Origin: an uncultured Pseudomonadales bacterium
Lineage (GTDB): Bacteria > Pseudomonadota > Gammaproteobacteria > Pseudomonadales > Pseudohongiellaceae
Length of the DNA stretch: 33,886 nucleotides
NCBI GenBank assembly: GCA_949430125.1
Contig: CASQMQ010000064.1
Coordinates: 1-33,886 of the forward strand
Direction of reading: 5' to 3'
This document shows, in pieces, positions 15,527 to 33,574 of this stretch. Numbering within the stretch: the stretch's first letter is position 1; every line of letters starts with the position of its first letter. The notes beneath the pieces were generated by a model. It was given only the letters and a program-made list of their open reading frames with translations, did not search any database and was not told the origin of the DNA. Position numbers and translations under genes: made by a program.

Positions 15527-17233
15527 ATGCTAGCTAAGTTTATGAAAATCATAGCTAAAATATCAATCGTGCTTCTCGCTGGAGGCACGTTGGTGAGTTG
15601 TACGGCCAATTCCTACCGTCAAGGCGCGGATCAGGAAACCTATGAAGCCATAGCGGACAAGACCAATCTCGTTCCGGGGATGACGCAGAGAATAGGGATT
15701 AATGAGGAGAAAGACGCTGATCTTAGTAGCCTCCCCACAAATGTGGATAGTTACGAATTTCTAGATAACGAGGCAGACAGCGAACTCGACGCGAATATCC
15801 TCAGCCTGAATGTCGCTCTGGATTTGGCGTTTCAGCATAGTCAGGAATATCAAACACAGAAAGAGGCACTCTATCTTGAGGCACTCGCGCTAACCTTCGA
15901 TCGCTATCGCTATACCCCGACTTTTTCTGCGGTGGGCGGTGCGGACTACCAATGGGATGCCGAAGATCAATTCGTTACCGACATGCAGGCTTTGACTGGC
16001 ATGAGCGTGCTCAGTGCTAGCGAGAGAGTGGATGCGAGTACCAGCTTAGGCGCGCGCTATCTCCTCAAAGGTGGCGGGGCAATCGCCTTAAACCTCACTA
16101 ATAATTTTACCCGATTCCTGACTGGCGATATTAGCGAGTTTGGTGCCGGTGCACTGATCGGCTCGTTCACACAGCCGTTGCTGCGAGACTTCGGCAGCGA
16201 TATCGAAACCGAGACGCTGATGCAGGCGGAGCGTGATCTGCTTTATCGTTTGCGAGATTTCACACGCTTTCGAAAGACCTTTGCGGTACGAGTTGCCTCT
16301 TCTTACTACTCAGTCTTGCTGAACAGAGAGACTGCTAGAAATAACTACGCGGGCCTTCTGGCTAACAACTCATCGCTAGAACGCGAGCGAGCATTTCAGG
16401 CAGAGGGGCTGCGCACCTTATTGCAGGTGGGCAGATTAGAGCAGTCTTCTCTGCAACAAGATCTGCGTTGGACTTCTTCCATCACGCGCTACAAGCGTAG
16501 TCTGGATAATTTCAAGATACTGCTAGGCCTGAAGGCGGAGGAGAATATAGCTCTGGACGACAATGAGATGATTCTGATTTCAGAAACGGGGATGGATAGT
16601 CCGGATCTTAACCTCGAACAGGCCATGGACCTCGCCGTGCAGACCCGCTTGGACTTGTATAACGGTCTCGACCGCGTTCAGGATCGTGCCCGAAAAATAG
16701 AGGTTGCGGCGAATGCGCTGAAGCCTGGACTGGACCTGAACCTTGTCGCTAGAGTGCCAGATGCTAACAACGGTGATCTGGGTGAGCTAGATTTTGAGAA
16801 TGCTCTGTACTCGGCTGGGCTCGATTTTGATTTGCCACTAGATACCAAGTTAGATAGAAATAGTTATCGCCGAGCATTGATCGACTACGAAGTTGCCACG
16901 CGAAACTACTTGCTCGACATGGATAATATTAAATTGGATGTGGTCGACCTTTGGCGGCGCATGAACCAAGCTAGAAAAAATTATGAAATTAATCTAACCA
17001 GCGTTCAGATCAACGAACGTCGAGTCGAAGAAGCCGAGCTGCGTGCTGAATTAGGGCTAGGAGATATTCAGGATACGGTAGATTCGCAGAACGATCTAAC
17101 AGCGGCACAAACGGATTTAATTAGCTCGATCGTAGATCACAATATATCGAAGTTAGAATTTTGGCGAGACTTGGGTTTGTTGTATGTCGACGATAGCGGG
17201 CAGTGGGAGGAAGGCGTTAATGAGTCAAGATAA
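15527..17233 (+). CDS. TolC-family outer-membrane efflux lipoprotein
   Basis: A 568-residue outer-membrane channel of the TolC superfamily. The start ATG at 15527 has TAGGAAA about ten bases upstream. The signal peptide ends in a lipobox (LVSC, Cys25), as in lipid-anchored OprM-like channels. Two repeats of long helical hairpins are visible: the first around ALDLAFQHSQEYQTQKEALY, the second around QAMDLAVQTRLDLYNGLDRV, each followed by strand-forming segments (FSAVGGADYQWD; LDLNLVARVP). The C-terminal helix carries ELRAELGLGDIQDTVDSQND, typical of OEP domains. It provides the outer-membrane exit for the exporter encoded by the next three genes and overlaps the adaptor gene by 14 bases. Confidence 0.9.
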   Translation: MLAKFMKIIAKISIVLLAGGTLVSCTANSYRQGADQETYEAIADKTNLVPGMTQRIGINEEKDADLSSLPTNVDSYEFLDNEADSELDANILSLNVALDLAFQHSQEYQTQKEALYLEALALTFDRYRYTPTFSAVGGADYQWDAEDQFVTDMQALTGMSVLSASERVDASTSLGARYLLKGGGAIALNLTNNFTRFLTGDISEFGAGALIGSFTQPLLRDFGSDIETETLMQAERDLLYRLRDFTRFRKTFAVRVASSYYSVLLNRETARNNYAGLLANNSSLERERAFQAEGLRTLLQVGRLEQSSLQQDLRWTSSITRYKRSLDNFKILLGLKAEENIALDDNEMILISETGMDSPDLNLEQAMDLAVQTRLDLYNGLDRVQDRARKIEVAANALKPGLDLNLVARVPDANNGDLGELDFENALYSAGLDFDLPLDTKLDRNSYRRALIDYEVATRNYLLDMDNIKLDVVDLWRRMNQARKNYEINLTSVQINERRVEEAELRAELGLGDIQDTVDSQNDLTAAQTDLISSIVDHNISKLEFWRDLGLLYVDDSGQWEEGVNESR

Positions 17234-19337
17234 GACTAGTGCAACAGAGAATACTGCTGTTAGCCAACTTTGGGGAAAAATTCCAGAGCCCGTCAGAGCG
17301 CAAGCTATTGAGCAGAAGGCTCGATTCTTGGCGGCTAAAAAACCTACGCAATATGCTATCGCTGCCTCGGTGGTGGTCTTGGCAGGCTTGCTGTTTTCTT
17401 TCGGTGGTAACTCGAGTGACACTCTTGCTGGCAGTATTACCTTCGAAGCTAGGCGCGGGAATCTAGATATAACCGTATTGGAAGGTGGGTCTCTAGAGGC
17501 ATTGCAATCGCAAGAAATTCGGTCTCGCGTCAAAGGCCGCGAAGGAGTTAAGATTCTCAGCATTGTTGAGGAAGGCTATCGGGTTACTCCCGAGGATGTA
17601 ACCGCCGGTAAGATATTGGTTGAGCTCGATACGTCGCAGTTAATCGACGAGCAACTCAATCAGGAAATCGCAGTAGAGACCGCTGAAGCCAGCTATATAG
17701 AGCGCAAAGCAGAATACGAAATTCAATTGAATCAAAACATGACGGACTTAAATGACGCGCGTCAGGACATGCGCTTCGCGAAGTTGGATTTCGAGAAATT
17801 CCTGGGCGGCAATATTGTTACCGAGATTGTTTCGCAACTGGAGATAGAAGAGCGTCTAGCACGTGCCGAGCAGGCAGACTTCGAAGCTGCGCAATTAGCT
17901 GACTCACTAGCCGTTGAGCCAGCTCCCAACACGGTCTCTGACTTGGCTACAGCAGAGCTACCGTTCGATCTCGATTCAATGCCGCCACAGATGCAGGAAA
18001 GAATTCGTCAGGCCATGGCAGACAACGGTGGCACACTGCCTGAAGACATGTTGCAACGTATGCAAAACTTTGGACAAGGCGGGGCTGGTGGTGGTCGTGG
18101 ACGACCCGGCGGTGCAGCTCCAAGGCCAACTGCTGAGACAGGTGCACCTGTAGCACGCGAGCCGCAGCCGCTATCCCTGCGAGCAGCTGCGCCTGCGAGC
18201 ATTAGTAGCAGGACACTGGACGCCGAACCAAACCTGCTCATGGATGACAGCTACATGGCGATTCGAGATAAGCTCGACTTTACACAGTATGCCGATATCA
18301 ACATGTTGGAAGACGGCGAGGCTAAACAACAGCTGCGATCCCTGCAAGATGATTTGCAAGTGGCCCAAGAAGAGCTGTTGTTGTCGCGGGACCGGATCGC
18401 GGGGCAGCGACGTTTAGAATCGCGCGGATTTATAACGCCAACAGAATTAGAAGCCGAAGAGCTAAATCTAAATAAAGCCAACAACAAGATGGAGCAAGAA
18501 GAGACGTCTTTGAAGTTATATATTCAGTACACGTTTCCGAAAGATGCGGAAGAAAAACTATCCGACTATGAAAACGCGGTGATGAGTTACCAGCGTCAGG
18601 TAAAAGAGAATGTTGCAGAAAAGGCGCAAGAAGCGGCGCGCTATAGCTCTGCCGAGCGCAAATTCAATCTTGAGCGAGTCAAGCTGGCGGATGTGAACGA
18701 GCAGATCGATCTAGCTACGATCATTGCACGGCGACCTGGCCTCGTCGTCTACGGTGCCGCTGACCAAAACTCTATGCGTTTCCGCAGCAACAGCCAGGAA
18801 GCTATTCAAGAAGGCGCTACTGTTAGAGAGAGACAGTCTATCTTGACTATTCCCGACATGCGGGAGATGGCAGTCAAAGTTAATATACATGAGTCTGCTG
18901 TGCAACGCGTCGCCGTAGGTCAGTTGGTGAAAGTGTCAGTTGACGCCTTTCCTGATGAGCAGCTAACAGGCGTCGTCATCAAGGTAGCTGTCGTCGCCGA
19001 CTCTGCAAACTCTTTCATGAACCCCGACCTAAAAGTCTATCCGACCACGATCAAGATTGATGGCACGCACGATTGGCTGCGTCCTGGAATGAGTGCTGAG
19101 ATCGATATTTTGGTGCGAAGCCTCGAAGATGTTGTCTACGTCCCAATTCAGGCGGTTACTTACTTCGACGACGAGCGCGTCGTCTATGTTTCTAACCGCG
19201 GCAGAACTGAGCGTCGAGAAATCAAGGTAGGCACCTTCTCTGATTCATATATCGAAATTCTAAGTGGATTGGAGGCGGGCGAGGAAGTGCTTCTGCTTCC
19301 ACCACAGCAAAGCCTGAGAGATGCCTCTGGCGCGTAA
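17220..19337 (+). CDS. HlyD/MacA-like periplasmic adaptor with Gly/Pro-rich insertion
   Basis: Membrane-fusion adaptor linking the ABC transporter to the TolC-like channel. ATG 17220 is chosen because GGAGGAAGG precedes it, rather than the in-frame ATG at 17184. The protein has 705 residues, against 350-450 for typical MacA. One membrane helix (about 44-61, QYAIAASVVVLAGLLFSF) is followed by barrel-sandwich strands (GNLDITVLEGGSLEALQSQE), a long coiled coil, and C-terminal beta-barrel segments (MAVKVNIHESAVQRVAVGQL; LRPGMSAEIDILV; VYVPIQAVTYF). Unusually, the coiled coil is interrupted by a low-complexity region at about residues 250-340, including GQGGAGGGRGRPGGAAPRP at about 284. Its tip should contact the TolC-like partner. 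Co-transcribed with the flanking genes. Confidence 0.9.
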   Translation: MSQDKTSATENTAVSQLWGKIPEPVRAQAIEQKARFLAAKKPTQYAIAASVVVLAGLLFSFGGNSSDTLAGSITFEARRGNLDITVLEGGSLEALQSQEIRSRVKGREGVKILSIVEEGYRVTPEDVTAGKILVELDTSQLIDEQLNQEIAVETAEASYIERKAEYEIQLNQNMTDLNDARQDMRFAKLDFEKFLGGNIVTEIVSQLEIEERLARAEQADFEAAQLADSLAVEPAPNTVSDLATAELPFDLDSMPPQMQERIRQAMADNGGTLPEDMLQRMQNFGQGGAGGGRGRPGGAAPRPTAETGAPVAREPQPLSLRAAAPASISSRTLDAEPNLLMDDSYMAIRDKLDFTQYADINMLEDGEAKQQLRSLQDDLQVAQEELLLSRDRIAGQRRLESRGFITPTELEAEELNLNKANNKMEQEETSLKLYIQYTFPKDAEEKLSDYENAVMSYQRQVKENVAEKAQEAARYSSAERKFNLERVKLADVNEQIDLATIIARRPGLVVYGAADQNSMRFRSNSQEAIQEGATVRERQSILTIPDMREMAVKVNIHESAVQRVAVGQLVKVSVDAFPDEQLTGVVIKVAVVADSANSFMNPDLKVYPTTIKIDGTHDWLRPGMSAEIDILVRSLEDVVYVPIQAVTYFDDERVVYVSNRGRTERREIKVGTFSDSYIEILSGLEAGEEVLLLPPQQSLRDASGA

Positions 19338-19377
19338 AGTGCATTAGTAGAAAGTCCGCCCAACACAGAGCGAAATT

Positions 19378-20124
19378 ATGCTTGAGACCGTATCATCTGA
19401 AAATGCCGACAGCGATGTCACCGCAATTCGCGGACAAGATATTGTCGCGAGTCTGGATGATATTCGTAAGACATATTATATGGGTGCGCTCTCGGTTGAG
19501 GTGTTGCACGGAATCAGCCTCGATTTTTATCAAGGCGACTATATCAGCATAATGGGTCCATCCGGTTGTGGTAAGTCGACGCTGATGAATATCCTCGGCT
19601 GTCTGGATCAGCCAACTGAAGGTAAGTACTTCCTCGGTGACCAGGATACTTCGAAGATGGAAGACGATGAATTGTCTAGTATTCGTGGTGCTAGGCTCGG
19701 ATTCATCTTCCAGTCCTACAATCTTATTCAACAACTAAACGTCTTAGAAAATATCGAGATGCCTCTGTTCTATCAAGGCTACTCCGAGGCAGACAGTCAC
19801 GAGATTGCTATGGGGCTAGCGGCTCGCGTTGGCTTGGACGACAGGGTCGATCACAAACCGTTTGAACTCTCTGGTGGACAGCAGCAACGCGTAGCGATTG
19901 CACGGGCATTGGCGGTCGACCCATTAATCATTTTGGCGGATGAGCCCACAGGAAATCTCGACTCTAAATCAGGCGCGGAAATATTAAATTTATTCGATGA
20001 GCTTCATGATCAGGGTAAGACTTTGATCATGGTGACACACTCAGATGAAATGGCGGAAAGATCGCAGCGCTTGGTTCGGCTGCGTGATGGGTTGGTGGAG
20101 AGCGATGACAGACGCAACGCTTAA
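19378..20124 (+). CDS. MacB/LolD-type ABC transporter ATP-binding protein
   Basis: A 248-residue ATPase with Walker [10 protein letters not shown] (about 60-68), Q-loop FIFQSYNLI, signature LSGGQQQR (about 164), Walker B IILADEP, D-loop GNLDS and H-loop MVTHS. The sequence is of the MacB/LolD class, in which ATP hydrolysis drives mechanotransmission across the periplasm rather than passage through the membrane. About 25 extra N-terminal residues precede the domain. The gene overlaps the start of the FtsX-like permease by 20 bases, fixing that partner. With the TolC-like and HlyD-like proteins it makes a full tripartite exporter, for example for peptides, siderophores or antibiotics; the actual cargo is unknown. 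Confidence 0.93.
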
Positions 20125-21466
20125 TTCTCCTAAAACAGGTTCGCGCCTGAACAGAAGTCCTAGTCTCGCTAAAGGATTTAATTTCGTTCGCTTCAAGAAA
20201 ATCACCGAAGTGGGCATCAAAAGTATCTATTCTCATGGACTGCGGTCTCTGCTTACGGTGCTGGGCATCGTAATTGGAGTGGCGGCGGTGATCGCCATGC
20301 TCGCGGTAAGCGAGGGTGCAAGCTATGAGGCGCAGCAGCAATTCCGCGATTTGGGTGCGAGCAATATACTCGTAAAGAGTGTGAAGCCTGCCGAGGTAGA
20401 GGAGAGCAGTCGCAGCGGTTTCGGTCCGCCTCAGGCTATCGTCTACGGCTTAACCACAGCCGACATTACTACAATCCGCAATTCGATTCCCGGCATAAAC
20501 AATGTCATCGCGTCGCGCATTGTTAAGAAGAATGTGTGGAACGGCGGGCTTAATATCAACACGGACGTAGTCGGTACGTCGGTGGACTATCCCGTCTCAC
20601 GTAACTACAACCTAAGAGCTGGACGCTTCTTTAGTGAGTCGGAGATGCGCGATCATGGCAATGTCGTCGTTCTTGGCGATGAAGTAGCGCAGGCGCTGTT
20701 TCCCATAGATAACCCGCTAGGCAAGACCATACGAATAGACAGCGACTATTACAATATAGTCGGCATCATGGAGTCTGAGGGGTTTTCGAACCTCGGCCAA
20801 AATCAGGCAGGCAGTTCCAATTCCGCACCTAGCCGAATTTTTATACCTTTCACTTCGTCTAAGAGTCGTTTCGGTGAAACAACTACACGCCAGACGGCAG
20901 GTGGCGTCGAATCCGAGACCGTCGAATTGCACGAAGCGATAATTCAGGTTGAAGGGCAGGATGGAGTCATCGAGGTCGGTGAGATCATTGATCAAATCTT
21001 GCAGCGTAGGCACAAGGATATCGACTACGCAATAGAGGTGCCACTCGCTCTGTTGCGGCAGGCCGAGGAGAGTGCGCTTCGTGATCAGATCGTAGCTGGA
21101 GCCATCGCCGGCATCTCACTGCTGGTAGGCGGCATCGGCATCATGAATATCATGCTCGCCAGTGTAACCGAGAGAACCAGAGAGATTGGCATACGTCGCG
21201 CGCTCGGTGCTAAGCGTAAAGACATCATCATGCAGTTCCTGATCGAGGCGGTTATTCTTTCGGGTGTGGGTGGTCTCATTGGTGTGGTGTTAGGAATTGC
21301 CATTCCTTTTATCATCTCCGCGTTTTGGGGCATGACCACTATTGTCACGCCGCTCGCCCCGATCTTGGCATTTTCAATCTCGGCACTGATCGGTGTGATC
21401 TTCGGCATCTATCCCTCCATCCGCGCAGCGGATATGGACCCCGTGGAAGCATTGCGACACGAATAG
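20105..21466 (+). CDS. MacB/FtsX-family ABC transporter permease
   Basis: A 453-residue permease with the MacB topology: an N-terminal cytoplasmic segment, helix one (about 48-67, SLLTVLGIVIGVAAVIAMLA), a large periplasmic MacB core domain (about 70-320), and three C-terminal helices. The cytoplasmic motif TERTREIGIRRALGAKRKDI and the ending AADMDPVEALRHE are hallmarks of the FtsX/MacB group. ATG 20105 is preferred over one at 20045 because it follows GGTGGAG and overlaps the ATPase gene by 20 bases. It works with the ATPase upstream. Last gene of the operon; the remnant that follows is not part of it. Confidence 0.92.
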   Translation: MTDATLNSPKTGSRLNRSPSLAKGFNFVRFKKITEVGIKSIYSHGLRSLLTVLGIVIGVAAVIAMLAVSEGASYEAQQQFRDLGASNILVKSVKPAEVEESSRSGFGPPQAIVYGLTTADITTIRNSIPGINNVIASRIVKKNVWNGGLNINTDVVGTSVDYPVSRNYNLRAGRFFSESEMRDHGNVVVLGDEVAQALFPIDNPLGKTIRIDSDYYNIVGIMESEGFSNLGQNQAGSSNSAPSRIFIPFTSSKSRFGETTTRQTAGGVESETVELHEAIIQVEGQDGVIEVGEIIDQILQRRHKDIDYAIEVPLALLRQAEESALRDQIVAGAIAGISLLVGGIGIMNIMLASVTERTREIGIRRALGAKRKDIIMQFLIEAVILSGVGGLIGVVLGIAIPFIISAFWGMTTIVTPLAPILAFSISALIGVIFGIYPSIRAADMDPVEALRHE

Positions 21467-23245: not shown

Positions 23246-24310
23246 TTATCTTTGTCTGGTGGCCGTGGCGCAAGATGAAAACAGTTCAGTGCGAACCTCC
23301 ACGCCTTTTTCTGCCAGTAGTGCCTGGTCTGCGCACGACACATTAGTGTGTCTTAGCTCGACAATATCCCCTGAGCCAATGCCGGGGTTCTCAAACAGCG
23401 CTTGAATATTGCCTAATTCAGGGTTGAATCGAAGATCGAGCTGCATCAGGTTTGTTAGTCCACTAAGCGGGGTAATGTCGGTTATGTCGTTACCCGTGAG
23501 TTCGAGATACTGCAAAGTAGCGAGTCCACGTAGCGGGCTGAGATCGGTAAATGAGTTTGCCGCTAATCGCAGTTCAATAAGAGAAGTTAAACCACTCAGT
23601 GGTGTCAGATCGCTTATGTCTTGCGTGTGAATATTAAGGTCTACAAGGTTGGTAAGTTTTGCCAACGGACTAATGTCGGTAACGGCGTTAGTAAAGAGTA
23701 AGCCTGTTGCTCCCATATGCGTTCTAGGGTTTTGTCCGCCGATGAAGTCTCCGTGGCGATGCATCCGAAGCACTCTCAATTCGGTAAGCTCACTTAGGGC
23801 ACTGATATCGGTCAAGGGATTCTCGGCGATACGTAACCTGACCAGCTTGGTCAAACCACGCAGAGGGCTGATGTCAGAAATCCAGTTTGTGTGTAAGTTT
23901 AGGTTTATCAAGTCGGTCAAGCCAGCCAGTGGGCTAATGTCGGAGAGGCCGCGGTTTCGTAGAGCGAGGTCGGTTAAGCCTGTGAGGTTCTGAATTCCGG
24001 AAAGGTCATGAAACAGATGTTCAGGGTCTCTCCATTCAGGAGACCCTGAAACCGATCGTCTAGCGCCCACACCAGAAGCATCCAGATTGGTTAATTGCGC
24101 TACTTGGCCACAGCTAAGAGTGTCCTGTGGTCCTCGGGATAAAGCCTCACGCACTTCACTTTCCAGCACGGCATCTGCAAAGGTCACTATGTCAGAAGCA
24201 GTATGGTCTCGACAATTGTCAGAGGGTTGCAGAACTTGTTGGCCCCAAGCACCAGAGCAAAGGGCGAGCGACAGTGCAGTTAAAGATAAGTTTCTAAAAA
24301 AATGTTTCAT
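23246..24310 (-). CDS. Exported leucine-rich-repeat protein, internalin-like, copy 2
   Basis: A 354-residue exported protein. The signal peptide ends around SGAWGQ (residue 24). An N-terminal cap (DNCRDHTASDIVTFAD, then TLSCGQVAQL) with two conserved cysteines precedes about nine 22-residue repeats of the bacterial type L-x-x-L-x-x-L-x-L-x-x-N-x-I-x-D-I-S-P-L, for example LTDLINLNLHTNWISDISPL and LATLQYLELTGNDITDITPL. A C-terminal cap carries two more cysteines. Such proteins form a curved solenoid used for protein binding at the surface or in the periplasm. It is a tandem paralogue of the next gene upstream, with 96 bases between them, and shares both caps. No enzyme domain or anchor is seen. 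Confidence 0.88.
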   Translation of the reverse strand: MKHFFRNLSLTALSLALCSGAWGQQVLQPSDNCRDHTASDIVTFADAVLESEVREALSRGPQDTLSCGQVAQLTNLDASGVGARRSVSGSPEWRDPEHLFHDLSGIQNLTGLTDLALRNRGLSDISPLAGLTDLINLNLHTNWISDISPLRGLTKLVRLRIAENPLTDISALSELTELRVLRMHRHGDFIGGQNPRTHMGATGLLFTNAVTDISPLAKLTNLVDLNIHTQDISDLTPLSGLTSLIELRLAANSFTDLSPLRGLATLQYLELTGNDITDITPLSGLTNLMQLDLRFNPELGNIQALFENPGIGSGDIVELRHTNVSCADQALLAEKGVEVRTELFSSCATATRQR

Positions 24311-24406
24311 TACTATATTCCTTGCTTGGGTTCCGTCTAAATACTAAAGCACTATTGTCTTGTTTGAATGCTGGAGATATTTCAAACTCTGGCCAATTTG
24401 ATAGGT

Positions 24407-25693
24407 TCAGAAGTTCTGATCATCTTCCAGCCTTCGACCATCACAGGCTGAGCCATTTATCGCAGTGACTCTGAGCAGATTGACTCCCAAGTTGGCAAAA
24501 GCGTCCATGTCGGAGCAAGGAGTATAGGTGAAGCGTAGGTCGAGTTCGTCGCCTTCACCGATGCCCTCGTTCAATAGCAGTGGTTGTACATTATAGAGGG
24601 ACCAGTTCTGAGCTAGGCTCAACTCTCTAAGCTGATTTAGGCCGGCGAGGGCGCTCACGTCAGTGATGTCGTTGTTCTCTAAACGTAGGACCTGCAATGC
24701 GTTGAGTCTACGCAGCGGCGCGATGTCCTCAATATTGTTGTTGCTGAGAAACAGATATCTCACGCCTATCATGTCCTGAAGAGGGCTAACGTCGGAGATG
24801 GCGTTGCCATCCAAGCTAAGTTGCACCAGGGCCGGCTTACCTCTTAGTGCGCTAAGGTCTTCTATCTGGTTGTTGTTAGCCCACAATAAAGTCAGTTCAT
24901 TCATATTCGCTAGCGCACTAATGTCTTTAATTTGGCTTTCATAAATACGCAGATGGGTGAGTTTGGTGAGATTGGCCAGCGCACTAATATCAGAAATAGC
25001 ATTGAGGTGAATGCGCAGCAAGCGCATTTCGGTGAGCCTCGCAAGCGGACTGATATCAGTGATTCCATTGAATACTACGTTAGGGTCGCGTCCATCGTCC
25101 ATATCGAGATAATGTTGGAGTTGCTGGGGATACAGGCCATGTACATGCAGTCTTCGAAGCTTAGTTAGTCTCGCCAATGGGCTAATATCGAAGATCGGGT
25201 TCTCACTGACGATAAGCTGTTCGAGATTGGTCAGTTCACTTACCGGGCTAAGGTCGCTGAACCAATTAGTATGCAAGTTCAAGGTAACGAGATTAGTCAG
25301 AGTGCGAAGGGGGCTAATGTCAGTAATGAGTCGATTGATCAGGTTGAGTCTGGTTAGGCCTGTAAGGTTCTGGATTCCCTCCAGGCTTTCGAAAGGTTTT
25401 TCTGGCGAGGGTCGTAAGGTGCCGCCGTAAACTACGCGCTCAATGGTAGTCCCCACAATCAGTTGTTCTAACTTGGCTGCTTGTCCACAGGTTAGTGCTG
25501 TCCGCGTATCCAAACCTATCGCTTCATGAACAACTTCCGCTAAGTCTGGATCGGCAAAGGTGACGATCGCATCCGCCGAAAAATCCCGGCAATGATCCGT
25601 AGGTGATAGCGTGGTTTGAGCTTGCGTGTTTATGAAAGGGAAGCACATTAGCAGCAGAGTAATCAGGATCGATATGTGGCGGCGAGAATTCAT
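24407..25693 (-). CDS. Exported leucine-rich-repeat protein, internalin-like, copy 1
   Basis: A 428-residue exported solenoid protein with the same plan as its neighbour: signal peptide (FPFINTQAQ end), Cys-containing cap (DHCRDFSADAIVTFAD and LTCGQAAKL), about twelve 22-residue LRRs such as LVTLNLHTNWFSDLSPV and LQVLRLENNDITDVSALAGL, and a C-terminal cap with DLRFTYTPCSD. It has three or so more repeats than copy 2, so the pair differs by repeat gain or loss after duplication. The ligand is unknown. The two genes are probably one operon. Confidence 0.88.
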   Translation of the reverse strand: MNSRRHISILITLLLMCFPFINTQAQTTLSPTDHCRDFSADAIVTFADPDLAEVVHEAIGLDTRTALTCGQAAKLEQLIVGTTIERVVYGGTLRPSPEKPFESLEGIQNLTGLTRLNLINRLITDISPLRTLTNLVTLNLHTNWFSDLSPVSELTNLEQLIVSENPIFDISPLARLTKLRRLHVHGLYPQQLQHYLDMDDGRDPNVVFNGITDISPLARLTEMRLLRIHLNAISDISALANLTKLTHLRIYESQIKDISALANMNELTLLWANNNQIEDLSALRGKPALVQLSLDGNAISDVSPLQDMIGVRYLFLSNNNIEDIAPLRRLNALQVLRLENNDITDVSALAGLNQLRELSLAQNWSLYNVQPLLLNEGIGEGDELDLRFTYTPCSDMDAFANLGVNLLRVTAINGSACDGRRLEDDQNF

Positions 25694-26857: not shown

Positions 26858-26954
26858 TTGGAAATTCTAGTTAAAAATGGGTTATGCTAAGTGGCAGCAA
26901 CTTAGAGAAGCCTTACAAACTCAGCTCAGATGATCTCCGCTAGAGGGAATGCAT

Positions 26955-28292
26955 ATGAAACTTATCAAATTAACGCTCGCAGCCTTTGCTGTGCTTGGGC
27001 TCCAGAGTGTATTCGCCCAAGATCAGATTTCCTACAACGAGCACGTGGCGCAAATCATCAATGAGAATTGCGTCGTGTGTCACCAGGAAGGCGGCATCGG
27101 CCCGATGCAGCTCACTAATTTTGATCAGGTACGCCCCTGGGCTCCGCTGATTCAACTGAAGGTGGCAAATCGAGAAATGCCTCCCTATGCCTATGACCAC
27201 GGCATTGGCATCCAGGAGCTAGTTGGGGACTGGCGCATGCAACAGGACGATATCGATACCATCGTGGCCTGGGTGAATGCTGGCTCCCCTCGAGGCGATA
27301 TTGACGTTATTGCACCTGTTGCTCAGGTGAAAACTCCAAGCCAATGGAACTTCGAAGCTGAACTTGGCGCGCCGGATCTGATCGTGCCTTCATCCTCCTA
27401 TGATGTCCCCGCCACCGGTAATGACCTGTGGATAAGAGAGATTGTTGACCCCAGATTAACTGCGGCAGTTGCCGAGCGCTGCATTAAGGCAGTTCAAGTG
27501 AAGCCTCGCGGAGATGCAGCGGCGGTAGTCCACCACGCAAATTCAATCATCTTTGTCGAAGACGAATACGGTGACCTTCGCCGAGATGGCATGCTCACTG
27601 AATACGCCATGGGCAAATGGGGCGAGAAAGTGCCTGGTGATGTCTGTAGGACTCTGCCTCCCGGCGCACAAATACAATGGAATATTCATAATTTCCCCGG
27701 TGGCGTTGGTGCAACCGCCAAAGGCGCGATGATCGAGGACAACGTGGTTGAAATTGGCCTGTGGTTCCACGATGAAGAATTCGGCGAGCAGGAAGGCGTC
27801 TACAGACAGACCCTGACAAACTACCGTATCGAGCAACAGGAAGATCTTATAATTCCACCTAACGGCTATCAAATGACGCAGGGCTTCCACACCTTTGACC
27901 ATCCTGTGCGCATCGATAGTTTCCAGCCCCATGGCCACCTGCGCATGAACGCCGCCTCTCTGGAGATTTTCTATCCCGAAACCGGCCGTACAGAGCCGGT
28001 CAGCCAGATCTCCAAATGGAGCGCTACTTGGCATCACAACCATATCTATGAACCCGATGTTGCTCCACTGCTTCCAGCAGGTGCAGTTCTAGTATTGAAG
28101 CAGTGGTATGACAATACGGCCGACAACCCCAATAATCCGGATCCTGATATGTGGGTTGTGGGCGGCAGTCGCACCGGCGATGAAATGACACACGCCTGGA
28201 TCGCCGTTACTCACCTTGACGATGAGGGCTTTGAGATTATGGTTGCCGAAAGAGAAGCCAAGCAGAAACGCTCCCTTGCAGGCAGTGACTGA
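26955..28292 (+). CDS. Cytochrome c fused to a copper type II (PHM-like) monooxygenase
   Basis: A 445-residue exported protein. ATG 26955 is chosen over the ATG at 26949 because GAGGGA lies at proper distance only from the former. The signal peptide ends at about residue 22. A cytochrome c-like domain follows with the haem motif CVVCH (39-43) and a likely axial Met75 in REMPPYAYD. The rest resembles the copper type II ascorbate-dependent monooxygenases (peptidylglycine hydroxylase/dopamine hydroxylase): adjacent His193-His194 in VVHHANSIIF, His245 in WNIHNFPGG, His326-x-His328 in QPHGHLRM and Met411 in GDEMTHAWIAV match the five His plus one Met that hold the two coppers. The cytochrome domain may replace ascorbate as electron donor (inference). 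First gene of a plus-strand cluster of exported redox proteins; substrate unknown. Confidence 0.78.
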   Translation: MKLIKLTLAAFAVLGLQSVFAQDQISYNEHVAQIINENCVVCHQEGGIGPMQLTNFDQVRPWAPLIQLKVANREMPPYAYDHGIGIQELVGDWRMQQDDIDTIVAWVNAGSPRGDIDVIAPVAQVKTPSQWNFEAELGAPDLIVPSSSYDVPATGNDLWIREIVDPRLTAAVAERCIKAVQVKPRGDAAAVVHHANSIIFVEDEYGDLRRDGMLTEYAMGKWGEKVPGDVCRTLPPGAQIQWNIHNFPGGVGATAKGAMIEDNVVEIGLWFHDEEFGEQEGVYRQTLTNYRIEQQEDLIIPPNGYQMTQGFHTFDHPVRIDSFQPHGHLRMNAASLEIFYPETGRTEPVSQISKWSATWHHNHIYEPDVAPLLPAGAVLVLKQWYDNTADNPNNPDPDMWVVGGSRTGDEMTHAWIAVTHLDDEGFEIMVAEREAKQKRSLAGSD

Positions 28293-28317
28293 TAAATTCT
28301 GCAGTCGTGACTGAAGA

Positions 28318-28351
28318 TTGATTGCGCCTCGCTAGATCGGGGCGCAATCAA
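28318..28351 (+). terminator. Hairpin after the cytochrome/copper gene
   Basis: An 11-base-pair stem (28318-28328 with 28341-28351, core GATTGCGCC/GGCGCAATC) and a 12-base loop lie 25 bases after the stop codon. No U-run follows, so termination, if any, would be incomplete or Rho-assisted. Confidence 0.45.
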
Positions 28352-28431
28352 GTCGTTGAGATATTGCGATAAGTAATCGGGCAGCTGTGAATCGCTAGTA
28401 GCTTCTGCCAGAAATATTGAGAGAACAGTTC

Positions 28432-30399
28432 ATGCCATTCACCCGCAGTACTTTCCACAAAATATCTACGCAGTTAGCTTTCTCCTCCATCCTCTTGTCA
28501 CTCAGCGCATTCAGTCACTCGCAGGCTCAGGATCAGGAGTGGCGCACCTATGGAGGCGACCTAGCGAGCACCCGTTATTCTCCGCTGGACACAATCAATG
28601 GTGAAAACTTCAGCCAGTTAGCGCTAGCTTGGGAATTCGACACGAGTAACTTTGGCCCTAGTCCAGAATTCAATTTTCAATCAACGCCGCTGATGGTCAA
28701 TCGAACAATCTATACCACTGCCGGAAACAGGCGAGCTGTTGTTGCTTTGGATGCGCAGACAGGAGAAATGCTCTGGATGTCCCGACTCGATGAGGGAGAG
28801 CGCGCTTCCAACGCTCCCCGTCGGTTGTCAGGCCGCGGACTGGCATGGTGGGATGATGGCAGCGAAAAAGGACGAATCATTTATGTGACGCCTGGCTACC
28901 AGATGATTGCCCTAGATGCAGCGAACGGGCTACGCATCGAGGATTTTGGACTCGATGGCATTGTAGATTTAAAACAAGAATTCGATCAGGAATTGGACCT
29001 GACAACAGGTGAAGTAGGACTCCATGCCGCGCCTATTGTTGCCAATGGCGTCATCGTTATGGGTTCGGCGTTTCGTGCTGGAAGAATGCCCACTAGTCGA
29101 GAGAAGCCGAAAGGTCATGTACGCGGCTACGATGCACGAACCGGGAATAGGCTTTGGATTTTTCACAGCATTCCTCAGGCCGATGAATACGGTAATGACA
29201 CCTGGCTGAATAATTCTTCGTCTTATACAGGATATGGTGGCGTCTGGGCGCAGATGACTGTCGACGCTGAGCTTAATACAGTTTATCTACCTACTGAAAC
29301 CGCCACCGGAGACTCCTACGGTGGTCATCGCCACGGCGACAATCTTTTTACAAACAGCGTAGTAGCACTAGACCTTACAACTGGCGAGCGACAATGGCAT
29401 TTTCAGACCACACATCATGACGTGTGGGATTGGGATATTCCCTCTGCGCCCATACTTCTTGATCTAACGATTAATGGCCAAACTAGCGCCGCGCTAGTGC
29501 AAACCGTGAAACAGGGTTTCACCTTTGTGTTTGACCGGGCGACCGGCGAACCCTTATTTGAAATAGAGGAAGTGCCAGTACCCCCATCTGATGTCCCGGG
29601 TGAACGACTCTCTCCTACCCAGCCAATTCCTGTTAAACCTCCGCCGTTCGCTCGCCAAGGACTCAACGACGATGAACTAATTGATTTCACGCCTGAACTT
29701 AAAGCTAAGGCACGCGAGATACTGTCTCAGTACCGCTACGGCGATATCTATATGCCTCCGTCTCTTGCAGACGCCGACGACGGTACGTTCGGCACACTGT
29801 TCATGCCCTCACAAACAGGCGGAGCCAATTGGCCTGGAGGCGCAGTAGATCCTGAAACTGGCATCATGTATATTTTTAGCAAGTCTGATGTGGGTCGAAT
29901 GTCTATGAGCAGTCGCCCGGACCGTTCCGACATGGATTATATTAATCTGCAATTGAGAACTGCGCCGCGCTTGAGTGTGGACGGTTTGCCATTAATCAAA
30001 CCACCTTATGGCCAGATTGTGGCGTTAGATTTGAACGAAGGTGAAATCTTGTGGGATGCTGTCCACGGTGAGACGCCGGATTCCATTCGTAATCATCCTG
30101 CACTGGCAGGCATAGATATCCCACCTACTGGACAAGCTGGGCGTGTGGGTGTTCTGGTTACCAAAACACTCGTTATAGCCGGCGACGGCGGCGGCTATAC
30201 TAATGCGGATGGCAAGCAGGAAGCCTTGCTACGAGCCTACGACAAACGTACCGGTGAACAACTGGGTAGTTTGGCAATGCCGGCGCAACAGACTGGTAGC
30301 CCAATGACTTATGCAATCGATGGAGTTCAGTATCTTGCTGTTTCGATTTCTGGCGGAGATGTACCGGGGCGGTTGAGAGTTTATAGTTACGAACCTTGA
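28432..30399 (+). CDS. Exported PQQ-dependent dehydrogenase (quinoprotein, eight-bladed propeller)
   Basis: A 655-residue quinoprotein. ATG 28432 with GAGAGAA seven bases upstream is preferred to a TTG at 28417. The signal peptide ends near residue 33 (SHSQAQ). The propeller opens with WRTYGGDLASTRYSPLDTI, the standard PQQ-dehydrogenase start, and shows blade motifs such as VVALDAQTGEMLWMSRLD, GYDARTGNRLWIFHSIP and ALDLTTGERQWHFQTTHHD. The segment HHDVWDWDIPSAP corresponds to the HNDLWDYD active-site region, and GGANWPGGAVDPETGIMYI to the late conserved blade. There is no N-terminal membrane part, unlike membrane-bound glucose dehydrogenase, and no cytochrome c domain, so it may pass electrons to a separate cytochrome, perhaps the gene upstream. 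Alcohol, sugar or aldehyde substrates are possible; none can be chosen. Confidence 0.87.
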   Translation: MPFTRSTFHKISTQLAFSSILLSLSAFSHSQAQDQEWRTYGGDLASTRYSPLDTINGENFSQLALAWEFDTSNFGPSPEFNFQSTPLMVNRTIYTTAGNRRAVVALDAQTGEMLWMSRLDEGERASNAPRRLSGRGLAWWDDGSEKGRIIYVTPGYQMIALDAANGLRIEDFGLDGIVDLKQEFDQELDLTTGEVGLHAAPIVANGVIVMGSAFRAGRMPTSREKPKGHVRGYDARTGNRLWIFHSIPQADEYGNDTWLNNSSSYTGYGGVWAQMTVDAELNTVYLPTETATGDSYGGHRHGDNLFTNSVVALDLTTGERQWHFQTTHHDVWDWDIPSAPILLDLTINGQTSAALVQTVKQGFTFVFDRATGEPLFEIEEVPVPPSDVPGERLSPTQPIPVKPPPFARQGLNDDELIDFTPELKAKAREILSQYRYGDIYMPPSLADADDGTFGTLFMPSQTGGANWPGGAVDPETGIMYIFSKSDVGRMSMSSRPDRSDMDYINLQLRTAPRLSVDGLPLIKPPYGQIVALDLNEGEILWDAVHGETPDSIRNHPALAGIDIPPTGQAGRVGVLVTKTLVIAGDGGGYTNADGKQEALLRAYDKRTGEQLGSLAMPAQQTGSPMTYAIDGVQYLAVSISGGDVPGRLRVYSYEP

Positions 30400-30502
30400 T
30401 CCAGCAATATTTTTGCACACACACAACCAACTATGGCCAACTTCAATCTCGAATCACTCGAGAGTATTGAATTTTCAACGACACGAGGGATTTAGTCTTA
30501 AA

Positions 30503-31297
30503 ATGAAACTACTAACCGCAATCACCTTACTTTGTTTTACCATTGTTGCTACCGCGCAAGAAAGTGCGGGAAGTGAGAGTGAGGCGCGCATTTTGTCTGT
30601 CTATCATGGGCTCGATCCCTTGCCGCCGCGAGCTACTAGATTATGTGGATTGCCGCCTGCAGGCGGGCAGGATGGAATGCCGGTTACCTTTTCAGTCCAG
30701 ATAAGTGGTGCATCAGTTTCTGCAGCTGCCTTTGCAGTTGAAACCAGCTCTGGCGAGGTTGTTACTCCTTTGTGTGCAACTCTGCGACCTGCCATAGAGT
30801 CTCTCGAGTTGCGCACAGTTCTTCTTATTGGATCTTTTAGTCCCGAGGATTCGCTGCCGCTCAGCGTTGAAATAGTAGAACAACTCGAAGATACCGATGG
30901 AAATTCCCTAATAGGCTTGAGAGGAGAAAAGGTGACAGCCCTTGAAGACGGCCCCAGTCTCGTCTTTGCCGAACGCTTTGCACCCAGCGCATCAGGACTC
31001 GAGGGTGCATGCCATGAAGATACTGCACAGGCTATTCTGCTAACCTGGGAAGGCGGAGTTACCGGACCTCAGGGCGCTAATCTCGCCGAGGCGCAGCGAA
31101 CTGCTATGTCGGTCCTTCTTGAAAATGGTGACCTAGTACTTCCACTCTCACTCGGTGATGATGATCCAGATAATCATGTCATCGCCTGCCTAGCCGAAAC
31201 CAGCCCAGCAGTTTCGGTAAGCGTAATAGCAGGGTTCTTTCATGATCCCGGTGATGATGCGAATCCTGCGACTAGTGTAGATGTCAATCAAAGATAG
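30503..31297 (+). CDS. Exported protein of unknown function
   Basis: A 264-residue protein I do not recognise. ATG 30503 gives a clean signal peptide (LLTAITLLCFTIVATAQ); an upstream in-frame start at 30413 would bury it, so the later start is used. GAGGGA lies about 12 bases before it, a weak site. The mature part is rich in Ser, Ala, Glu and Asp and predicted mainly beta; it holds four cysteines (RLCGLPP, TPLCATL, EGACHED, VIACLAE) that could form two disulfides, and ends in DDANPATSVDVNQR. It lies 103 bases after the PQQ gene and 107 bases before the first PAL-like gene, so it belongs to the same cluster. A periplasmic accessory role is only a guess from position. Confidence 0.7.
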   Translation: MKLLTAITLLCFTIVATAQESAGSESEARILSVYHGLDPLPPRATRLCGLPPAGGQDGMPVTFSVQISGASVSAAAFAVETSSGEVVTPLCATLRPAIESLELRTVLLIGSFSPEDSLPLSVEIVEQLEDTDGNSLIGLRGEKVTALEDGPSLVFAERFAPSASGLEGACHEDTAQAILLTWEGGVTGPQGANLAEAQRTAMSVLLENGDLVLPLSLGDDDPDNHVIACLAETSPAVSVSVIAGFFHDPGDDANPATSVDVNQR

Positions 31298-31404
31298 CCA
31301 GAGTACTTCGATCCAATACCAATAAATCGGGTTACGGCAAAAATTTAGTATTGTATTCTTACTCTTCCCCAGTTTTTATTCACCGTCAGCCGAGCAAGAC
31401 GATT

Positions 31405-32445
31405 ATGACAAAACTGAACAAAGTCCATATCCAGCAAACTTTAGCGGCAGCGCTTTCGCTCGTTTTTTCTGTCACTGCATTCTCTCAACTTACGGACGTC
31501 CGTTTCGTCGCTGAGGAAGACTATAGCTTCGACGAAACATTTTTCAAACTACCAGCAGGCAGAACAATCGGCGCCACCTCAGGCCTGGCAATTCACCCGG
31601 ATGGCTCTTCTATCTGGGTGTATGATCGCTGCGGCGGCTCCGATTGCCGAGGTTCAAATCTTGCTCCTATCATGCAATTCGATCGCGAGGGCAATCACCT
31701 TCTCAGCTTTGGCGCAAATCTTTTCCAGCGCCCCCATGGGTTGTTTGTGGATAGAGATGGCAATGTCTGGGTGACGGATGATGTTGGCTCACGTGAAATC
31801 GATACTGTTAGCGAAGGTAAGGGCCATCAGGTTTTCAAGTTCAGCCCCGAAGGTGAGCTGCTCATGACCCTGGGCAAACCCGGCATTCCCGGCGACGGAC
31901 CGGACACATTCAATATGCCATCGGCAGTTCTCGTTGCACCCAATGGCGATATTTTTGTCGGTGATGGGCATGGTCCACGCTCCAACGCTCGCATAGTAAA
32001 GTTTAATTCTCGTGGGGACTTTCTCATGACATGGGGCTCAGCTGGCGACGGTCCGAATCAGTTTCACACGCCTCACGCACTTGCTATGGACTCGGCAGGG
32101 AGGTTATTTGTTGGTGATCGTGGTAATAGCAGAGTGCTCATTTTTGACCAGCTAGGTAAATTTATCGATGAGTGGAAACAATTTGGTCGTCCCAGTGGCA
32201 TGTTCATCGATGACAATGACCTGTTGTATGTCGCCGATTCCTCATCTTCAAACACAGCACAATCTAATCCTGGCTTTGAAGAGGGCATCCGAGTTGGTCA
32301 TGTTAGAGACGGTGAAATTATTTTGTTTATCGAGGACACCGACAGCGACGGTAGTCAGGAGGGAGTTACTGCTGATAGTGATGGCAATATCTATGGCTCA
32401 CTCACAGGAGGCATGGCTTTGCGGAAATATCCGCAATCAGAATGA
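31405..32445 (+). CDS. PAL-like NHL-repeat beta-propeller protein 1
   Basis: A 346-residue exported six-bladed NHL propeller of the peptidyl-alpha-hydroxyglycine amidating lyase (PAL)-like family. ATG 31405 gives the signal peptide (ending TAFSQ). Blade motifs align with animal PAL: RPHGLFVDRDGNVWVTD (His111), GHQVFKFSPEGELLMTLG, NARIVKFNSRGDFLMTWG, TPHALAMDSAGRLFVGDR (His224, Arg239) and FGRPSGMFID. Arg75 in YDRCG may match the first catalytic Arg. However, the position of the catalytic Tyr reads DGHG and the third zinc His is replaced by QEGVTAD. PAL activity is therefore uncertain; another lyase or binding role is possible. It is a tandem paralogue of the next gene. Confidence 0.8.
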   Translation: MTKLNKVHIQQTLAAALSLVFSVTAFSQLTDVRFVAEEDYSFDETFFKLPAGRTIGATSGLAIHPDGSSIWVYDRCGGSDCRGSNLAPIMQFDREGNHLLSFGANLFQRPHGLFVDRDGNVWVTDDVGSREIDTVSEGKGHQVFKFSPEGELLMTLGKPGIPGDGPDTFNMPSAVLVAPNGDIFVGDGHGPRSNARIVKFNSRGDFLMTWGSAGDGPNQFHTPHALAMDSAGRLFVGDRGNSRVLIFDQLGKFIDEWKQFGRPSGMFIDDNDLLYVADSSSSNTAQSNPGFEEGIRVGHVRDGEIILFIEDTDSDGSQEGVTADSDGNIYGSLTGGMALRKYPQSE

Positions 32446-32521
32446 TGTGAGTAACTTGATTGCTAAATCAACGCTGAATAATTTCGGTCCCTATTAATTT
32501 TCATTACTACTGGGTTCACTC

Positions 32522-33574
32522 ATGAGAACAATAAAAACACTAGCGCTACTCGCGGTATCGCTCCTCATTGCCGATACGGGGATACACACTCACGCCCAAT
32601 CCCAATCGGCGCCAAGCATTGCCCACGGCGTGCGCAATGACCTGCCTCAGCCCTATGAGACACAACGCAGTTGGGGCGAATTACCTCAAGGGTCAAAATG
32701 GGCTGCAGTTACTGCCGTGGAACCTTCTCCTGATGGTCAATTCATCTATGTGATACACCGCTGCATTGACAACTCCTGTGAGGGTCGAAGCGAAGCACCT
32801 ATTCTTAAATATGACTATGACGGTAATTTACTGAATTCTTTTGGTGCAGGACTGTTTATTTTTCCCCATGGCGGCACGGTGGATTATGAAGGGAATCTTT
32901 GGGTCACGGACGCGCGCAGTAACGATAGCATTGGGCATCAGGTTTTCAAGTTCAGCCCCGACGGTGAGATTTTGATGACGCTGGGACAACAAGCGCGGGG
33001 CGGATCAACACCGGGACTTCTTTTCAATCCGACTGACGTTGTTGTTGATCCTAACGACGGGGACATCTTTGTCGCCGAGAGCCACCGGGGTGGCATGAAT
33101 AATCGAATTGTGCATTATTCATCTACGGGAAGGTTCATTAAGCAATGGGGAAGCAAAGGATCAGGGCAAGGGGAATTCAGCGAACCCCATAGCATAGCCA
33201 TGGATTCCCAAGGAAGGTTGTTTGTTGGCGATAGAGACAACAATCGCATCCAGATTTTTAGTCAGGAGGGAGTTTTTATAGACGAATGGAGGCAGTTCGG
33301 TCGCCCTAGCGGTATTTTCATTACTGCTGATGACAAAATTTATGTGGCCGATTCGGAATCCGGACCCGACACCGGTGCGGGTGAATTAATGGGAATAAGA
33401 AAGGGTATTCGTATCGGCTCAGCCGTTGATGGAACAGTGACTGCATTCATCGAAGACATGGAACCTCTGCGGGACGATCACTCGGGTGCCGAGGGTGTTG
33501 GAGTGGATGCTAATGGAAATGTTTACGGCGCGGTGGTTAGACGACAAATGTTAGAGCGGCATGTACTGAGATAA
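32522..33574 (+). CDS. PAL-like NHL-repeat beta-propeller protein 2
   Basis: A 350-residue exported paralogue of the gene 76 bases upstream. The signal peptide ends around HTHAQ (residue 26). It keeps FPHGGTVDYEGNLWVTD (His116), GHQVFKFSPDGEILMTLG, NNRIVHYSSTGRFIKQWG, EPHSIAMDSQGRLFVGDR and FGRPSGIFI. As in copy 1 the Tyr position differs (ESHRGG) and the third His site reads AEGVGVD, so the two proteins share the same departure from animal PAL. A 26-base stretch is identical between the two genes. The pair may act on different substrates or as a complex. The stop codon overlaps a REP-like element. Confidence 0.8.
   Translation: MRTIKTLALLAVSLLIADTGIHTHAQSQSAPSIAHGVRNDLPQPYETQRSWGELPQGSKWAAVTAVEPSPDGQFIYVIHRCIDNSCEGRSEAPILKYDYDGNLLNSFGAGLFIFPHGGTVDYEGNLWVTDARSNDSIGHQVFKFSPDGEILMTLGQQARGGSTPGLLFNPTDVVVDPNDGDIFVAESHRGGMNNRIVHYSSTGRFIKQWGSKGSGQGEFSEPHSIAMDSQGRLFVGDRDNNRIQIFSQEGVFIDEWRQFGRPSGIFITADDKIYVADSESGPDTGAGELMGIRKGIRIGSAVDGTVTAFIEDMEPLRDDHSGAEGVGVDANGNVYGAVVRRQMLERHVLR

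Follow-up and report, generated by a model that had tools for sequence, protein, structure and literature searches.

A cytochrome-fused PHM-type monooxygenase encoded with two PAL-family propellers in a Pseudohongiellaceae bacterium: a possible divergent branch of a bacterial PHM/PAL system

Animals and green algae are known to amidate peptides with the copper hydroxylase PHM and the lyase PAL, and bacterial PAL-like and copper monooxygenase domains carry database annotations. No description of a bacterial PHM/PAL pair was found in the literature searched, which misses most subscription journals. One study describes PHM as widespread among eukaryotes and PNGase F as widespread among bacteria (PMC8812541), and the authors of work on the MdgH/MdgL enzymes liken their stepwise dealkylation to PAM (PMC12508155). 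Here we describe five genes, termed A to E, in a window of 33,886 nucleotides (the whole stretch analysed, contig CASQMQ010000064.1 of assembly GCA_949430125.1) from an uncultured marine Pseudomonadales bacterium of the family Pseudohongiellaceae. HTCC2089/Pseudohongiellaceae genomes are presented as little studied, and HTCC2089 as oxygenase-rich, in a survey (PMC8371827).

The five genes may constitute a periplasmic two-step oxidative cleavage module. Since complete-site PAL propellers are paired with equivalent PHM genes elsewhere in the bacterial family, we read this module as a branch that has diverged within a wider bacterial PHM/PAL system, a reading to which we assign a probability of about 0.5. 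The families, ligands, substitutions, secretion-type N termini and linkage reported below come from sequences or structural models. G, C, L and g numbers are our handles for genomes, contigs, loci and genera; the window corresponds to contig C64 of a genome that is 68.7% complete (1.95 Mb in 89 contigs). The open reading frames (ORFs) are:

26949..28292, + strand: ORF A, 447 amino acids, with signal peptide, cytochrome c domain and PHM/DBH-type copper monooxygenase domain
28417..30399, + strand: ORF B, secreted quinoprotein of the pyrroloquinoline quinone (PQQ) type without CxxCH; likely start ATG 28432
30413..31297, + strand: ORF C, secreted protein matching no family; likely start ATG 30503
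31351..32445, + strand: ORF D, PAL-family propeller with variant His/Glu (H/E) site; likely start ATG 31405
32522..33574, + strand: ORF E, PAL-family propeller with variant H/E site

The genes are consecutive on one strand, with intergenic gaps of 124, 13, 53 and 76 bp as measured from the first start codons; with the likely ATG starts three of these gaps lengthen. This is the order and strand given in a preliminary description of the locus, including the quinoprotein lying between the monooxygenase and the propellers; B is a PQQ propeller (PF01011, 5.2e-182). Secretion-type N termini, judged by eye, are present on A, B, D and E. A was translated from the ATG at 26949, and the residue numbers of the preliminary description, which used the second ATG (26955), are 2 lower than ours.

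The copper monooxygenase and the altered propellers

The preliminary description had assigned six copper ligands and a cytochrome c domain of its own to the first gene. The ligands were recovered as H195, H196, H247, H328, H330 and M413, and the heme motif, together with a likely axial Met, is present throughout alignment A1. The features of A are:

ORF A, about residues 29-110: cytochrome c domain, with weak Pfam cytochrome c matches
27069..27083, + strand: heme motif C41xxC44H45, 62/62 rows of A1
27177-27179, + strand: Met77, likely axial ligand of the cytochrome part, 62/62 rows
27531..27536, + strand: H195-H196, two CuH-type ligands, 62/62 rows
27687..27689, + strand: H247, third CuH-type ligand, 60/62 rows
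27930..27938, + strand: H328-x-H330, two CuM-type ligands, 47/47 close relatives and 0/15 AhpC-type rows
28185..28187, + strand: M413, CuM-type Met ligand, 61/62 rows (one cut)

A1 has 62 rows, after L074:5593-6858 was dropped and a 100% identical copy from L038 was replaced by the window sequence. Among the close relatives five of the ligands are kept in 47/47 rows; the Met is present in 46, and the remaining row is truncated at that point. All six are invariant among 24 more diverse relatives. The A-identical protein of L038 comes from a record titled uncultured Gammaproteobacteria bacterium, and the titles of other related records include Pseudomonadales, Pseudohongiella and SAR86.

The structure prediction that the preliminary description had proposed for this gene gave an AlphaFold2 model with a predicted local distance difference test score (pLDDT) of 81.1 and a predicted TM-score (pTM) of 0.80. 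Searched against the Protein Data Bank (PDB) with Foldseek, the model matched DBH first (two hits) and then PHM (28 hits), which together fill ranks 1-30 (E-values 1e-10 to 3e-7), followed by an unrelated tandem carbohydrate-binding domain (7.6e-7). Sequence comparison was less direct. No Pfam copper monooxygenase model (PF01082 and PF03712 are those of the PHM/DBH type-II copper monooxygenases) matched A at an E-value of 0.01, only a weak cytochrome c match being found; PF03712 matched 11 of 24 A-family members (E-values up to 0.01), and the family-model score of one relative narrowly exceeded the cut-off (23.3 vs 23). Neither PHM nor DBH was found in PDB sequence searches with A, the A1 profile, a mixed profile (A6) or an AhpC-type relative, so that the PHM homology of A rests on its fold, the order of its ligands and the Pfam matches of its relatives. 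Weak PDB matches to epoxysuccinate hydrolase, SMC3, the heme part of hydrazine synthase and a thioredoxin-like protein were judged to reflect chance or the heme or redoxin part. A has the predicted fold and, as assigned by sequence, the ligands of a type-II copper monooxygenase.

One set of PHM relatives, of AhpC type, flanks tandem A-like genes on the opposite strand (in L047-L076, e.g. L054:4974-6737). These keep the His pair and the Met, and in 15/15 rows Arg/Lys and Asn/Ser replace the HxH ligands; they seem, from the alignment, to be a conserved subfamily in which CuM has been lost.

D and E contain NHL repeats. The preliminary description had called them PAL-like, and PAL is both the top fold match of E and the first match of its diagnostic segment. 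For this segment (residues 88-210) rat PAL came first in the PDB (1.7e-20), ahead of other NHL proteins by nine orders of magnitude (first non-PAL match 2e-11). The predicted fold of E matched PAL best (3fvz, 4.3e-22, TM-score 0.69/0.73; next match 3.3e-18). In whole-length PDB sequence searches Thin and TRIM71 rank above PAL, and the C-terminal part of E by itself gave no alignment to PAL. By fold, D and E are members of the PAL propeller family. Their site residues are:

ORF D: R93, H129, H207, H242, R257, E337
ORF E: R80, H116, H188, H223, R238, E324

These correspond to six PAL residues for which we assume catalytic or zinc-binding roles. The equivalents of Arg533 (R93 in D, R80 in E), His585, His690 and Arg706 (R257 and R238) are retained. 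The catalytic Tyr654 is replaced by His (D207, E188) and His786 by Glu (D337, E324), so the three zinc His of PAL read His, His, Glu in both proteins. As D and E lack two defining site residues, we do not call them PAL. Rat numbering of H585, Y654 and H786 matches the residue index of chain 5wm0. Across the 22 members of alignment A2, R80, H116, H223 and R238 are invariant, and H188 and E324 are at least 90% conserved. The His786-to-Glu assignment is based on MAFFT alignments, in which complete-site relatives have His in that column, and E324 directly follows a low-confidence stretch of the model (residues 316-319). The absence of the PAL Tyr and of the third zinc His, stated in the preliminary description, is real, but it is a conserved substitution by His and Glu instead of a plain loss.

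Among 71 related propellers, all distinct in sequence, the six positions read RHYHRH in 36, RHHHRE in 19 (including D and E), RHLHRH in 8, RHEHRH in 5 and HHYHRH in 1, with 2 incomplete; this is a hand-picked sample, so the class proportions are not natural frequencies. His at the Tyr654 place and Glu at the His786 place occur only together. The equivalents of R533, H585, H690 and R706 are kept in 68/71, with changes confined to the other two positions. In the RHLHRH sequences (L125, L127 and others), another class of the PAL family, Leu takes the place of Tyr654 and the three His are intact. The genome of the window itself has a complete-site member (L090:9605-10861, contig C49) lying between AhpC-cytochrome c-PHM fusions and, on contig C34 (L089), a Glu/His propeller in a compact run with PHM and a cytochrome-quinoprotein. 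The latter propeller, L089:7703-9487, has Glu at the Tyr654 place and is fused to an N-terminal metallo-beta-lactamase-like domain (PF13483, 1.2e-8).

Complete-site propellers and their linkage to PHM genes

Linkage was measured in three complete genomes (G134, G135 and G136) against circular shifts. A propeller matching the D/E profile lay within 5 kb of 12/46 PHM loci, where 2.3 were expected and none of 2000 shifts reached 12; the counts were 13 vs 3.9 expected at 10 kb and 14 vs 6.9 at 20 kb. When the propellers were split by class, those with a complete site were the most strongly linked (7/11 within 5 kb of PHM, 0.45 expected, reached in 1/5000 shifts), and those of an intermediate class gave 2/10 (0.40 expected, 265/5000 shifts). 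For this split five propeller rows under 80 bits were dropped and split hits merged; the classes were set by score, and the residue check covered 11/11 complete-class genes and part of the 38 of the D/E class. By genome, complete-class linkage was 5/7, 2/2 and 0/2, which makes G135 an exception, and because the three genomes belong to one genus and have some loci in common, their loci cannot be counted as independent. Another 20 stretches surrounding complete-site genes were picked by hand from about 150 places, for other genera and second loci, before PHM neighbours were seen; a PHM gene was present in 11, and 6 of the 9 misses were under 16 kb long.

Specific arrangements recur. In L116 (G136) and L158 (G110) a complete-site PAL gene is followed on the same strand by a PHM gene, with gaps of 68 and 39 bp, and the PHMs of these pairs are about 65% identical to A. 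A locus with AhpC-cytochrome c-PHM genes, a complete-site PAL, a HupE/UreJ-type protein and CstA (Pfam assignments in L120) is found in the genome of the window and in L117, L119, L120 and L155; similar arrangements occur in genera g6 and g7 (L142-L145, L147, L148). In a tree of 63 PHM sequences, from regions partly selected for propeller proximity, complete-site partners appear in the AhpC-type branches, in the clade of A, and in L102/L103, L152, L154 and L156. Within the clade of A the neighbouring propellers are complete (L116, L158), H/E (window, L111, L136, L137) or Leu/His (L/H; L125, L127).

The preliminary description had also proposed a search for co-occurrence across genomes, and this was found, in company with a linkage far above that of the shifts: PHM matches (E-value 1e-10) are present in 116/137 genomes of the bacterial family (6/8 genera) and complete-site PAL (1e-125) in 103/136 (4/8 genera). 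Of the 21 PHM-negative genomes, at least 20 are placed in genera g2, g3 and g8, none of which has a complete-site match; this co-absence follows phylogeny and is weak evidence alone. Across 369 genomes of the class, the complete-site profile (E-value 1e-60) matched at least this genome and G384, the latter outside the family; at most five candidates were scored per genome, which makes this result a lower bound.

The gene sequences give good support for a split PHM/PAL system in the periplasm of this bacterial family, and the window, as read from its site residues, holds a re-engineered version of that system. The oxygenases encoded beside an unaltered-looking PAL in relatives suggest a bacterial counterpart of the animal pathway.

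A proposed mechanism and its alternatives

For metal loading, electron flow, step order and substrate class we infer the following. In the periplasm A would hydroxylate a C-H bond of a substrate that is either imported or at the surface, heme-borne electrons arriving through its own cytochrome domain in place of the ascorbate used in animals. D and/or E would then cleave the resulting carbinol, using a metal site built from three His and a Glu instead of three His and a Tyr. B would oxidise an alcohol in this pathway, perhaps supplying the cytochrome with electrons. The preliminary description had likewise proposed a periplasmic two-step pathway; the fold, the ligands, the PAL family and the co-occurrence agree with it, whereas the complete PAL site lies at other loci and the class of D and E is weakly linked.

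The window locus can be followed in nine orthologous records (A 85-100% identical). B adjoins A in 8/9, the exception (L045) being at a contig end, and a D/E-class gene lies within 6 kb in 8/9, again with an exception at a contig end (L038). The A-B-D association is maintained in orthologues that are 79-94% identical. ORF C is present in 6/39 loci (L039-L041, L043, L044, L046), each an orthologue of the window locus. A PGA_cap-like gene, absent from the window, precedes D in four relatives (L039, L041, L043, L046); an example of this family (PF09587) is L041:14758-16224. At the 30 remaining A-like loci, A is often present in tandem copies.

Several observations weigh against the proposed module. 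The TM-scores of A against DBH and PHM are modest (0.37-0.46 over the query, heme domain included), with root-mean-square deviations of 5.4-9.1. The residue two before HxH in A is Gln instead of Arg, at the place of what we take to be Arg240, the carboxylate-binding Arg of PHM. The H/E class of D and E is linked weakly (5/38 within 5 kb of PHM, 1.56 expected, reached in 111/5000 shifts), and in the genome of the window it occurs mostly without PHM nearby. E follows D in the window but lies upstream of A, and divergent from it, in L041-L045, and a PAL-family gene is found within 10 kb in just 6/30 of the tandem-array loci. A link between the Gln/Arg residue and PAL class is a lead only: Fisher's test gave p 0.015 for 12 pairs and 0.107 after orthologous loci were collapsed, from a hand-made table in which L/H and E/H pairs were left out.

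A broader version of the proposed module, that the family has a genuine split PAM-type pathway of cytochrome-coupled PHM and complete-site PAL from which His/Glu, Leu/His and Glu/His lyases for other oxidative dealkylations arose, those of the window among them, is held tentatively, at somewhat below even odds. The foremost alternative, which we regard as doubtful but worth serious weight, is a catabolic island in which A, B, D and E function as separate oxidative enzymes: A would be a DBH-like hydroxylase acting on algal small molecules, B would oxidise the alcohol formed, and D and E would be unrelated metallo-propellers, lactonase- or lyase-like. The lineage has very many such genes, which could by itself account for a shared neighbourhood: it is crowded with PHM genes (33 in G136, 14 in G134, 18 in G135, 23 in G082), D/E-profile propeller genes (29, 16, 17 and 19, in the same order) and PQQ genes. 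The H/E class is weakly PHM-linked and often near quinoproteins without PHM, and the first fold match of A is DBH. A North Sea survey of HTCC2089/Pseudohongiellaceae infers the breakdown of diverse algal metabolites (PMC8371827). Against this reading stand the specific linkage of the complete-site class to PHM, the sharing of loci between this class and the closest paired relatives of A, and the persistence of the A-B-D association among orthologues.

It is improbable that the window genes carry out true alpha-amidation of peptides or N-acylglycines, with A hydroxylating a C-terminal glycine and D/E freeing glyoxylate: the fold and family of both partners would suit this, as would the common equivalents of R533, H585, H690 and R706, but in D and E Tyr654 has given way to His and the third zinc His to Glu, and A has Gln at the presumed Arg240 place. 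A role of D and E as NHL propellers that bind or scaffold without catalysis, as the strong sequence matches to TRIM71 and Thin might indicate, is very improbable given the conservation of their polar site residues in A2 and the precedence of PAL over TRIM/Thin by fold and in the diagnostic segment.

Some further features were recorded. A secreted protein of about 280-320 amino acids, without Pfam or NCBIfam match (L089:13060-13899, L091:7046-7963, L064:1-837 and many others), is the usual neighbour in the 30 A-like loci (within 500 bp in 22) and is possibly an accessory or substrate protein of the heme-PHM genes. L068 has four A-like genes in tandem (about 60-62% identity to A), like marine relatives, and its record title, Klebsiella pneumoniae, is probably a wrong label. 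Quinoproteins are very strongly expanded in the lineage (PF01011 matches: G136 66, G134 35, G135 38, G082 66). Elsewhere in the window are:

15527-21466, + strand: row of OEP-type outer membrane protein, HlyD-type, ABC ATPase and MacB/FtsX genes, a likely tripartite efflux system
23246-25693, - strand: two neighbouring leucine-rich-repeat proteins, the nearest NCBIfam models being internalins, far under cut-offs

Comparison with known systems

The origin of PAM would be seen in a new light if a bacterial family pairs PHM-type enzymes that have a built-in cytochrome c with PAL-type propellers at the gene level. Such a pairing would show a copper enzyme drawing its electrons from a respiratory cytochrome and not from ascorbate, and the naturally varied PAL active sites (Tyr/His, His/Glu, Leu/His, Glu/His) offer testable chemistry.

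The A family resembles PHM and DBH in fold, in the ligand order HH...H...HxH...M and in the PF03712 matches of part of its members (11/24). It differs in that the bacterial proteins are fused to cytochrome c, or to AhpC/TSA and cytochrome c, instead of relying on ascorbate, and A departs from PHM in the Gln at the assumed Arg240 place and in having no PDB match by sequence. E resembles PAL as a predicted six-bladed NHL propeller with PAL as its top fold match; four site equivalents are kept, and all six in 36/71 relatives. D and E depart from PAL in two site residues, His replacing Tyr654 and Glu replacing His786, and in being separate secreted proteins without a PHM fusion. MdgH/MdgL methylguanidine demethylation is likewise a bacterial dealkylation by hydroxylation and then lyase action, but it uses a 2-oxoglutarate/Fe dioxygenase, and its lyase is not homologous to PAL according to the authors (PMC12508155). 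With animal PAM the bacterial system shares PHM-type and PAL-type enzymes that are encoded together and likely act in the same compartment, whereas the bacterial genes are split, the hydroxylase is heme-fused and the PAL family comprises several site classes.

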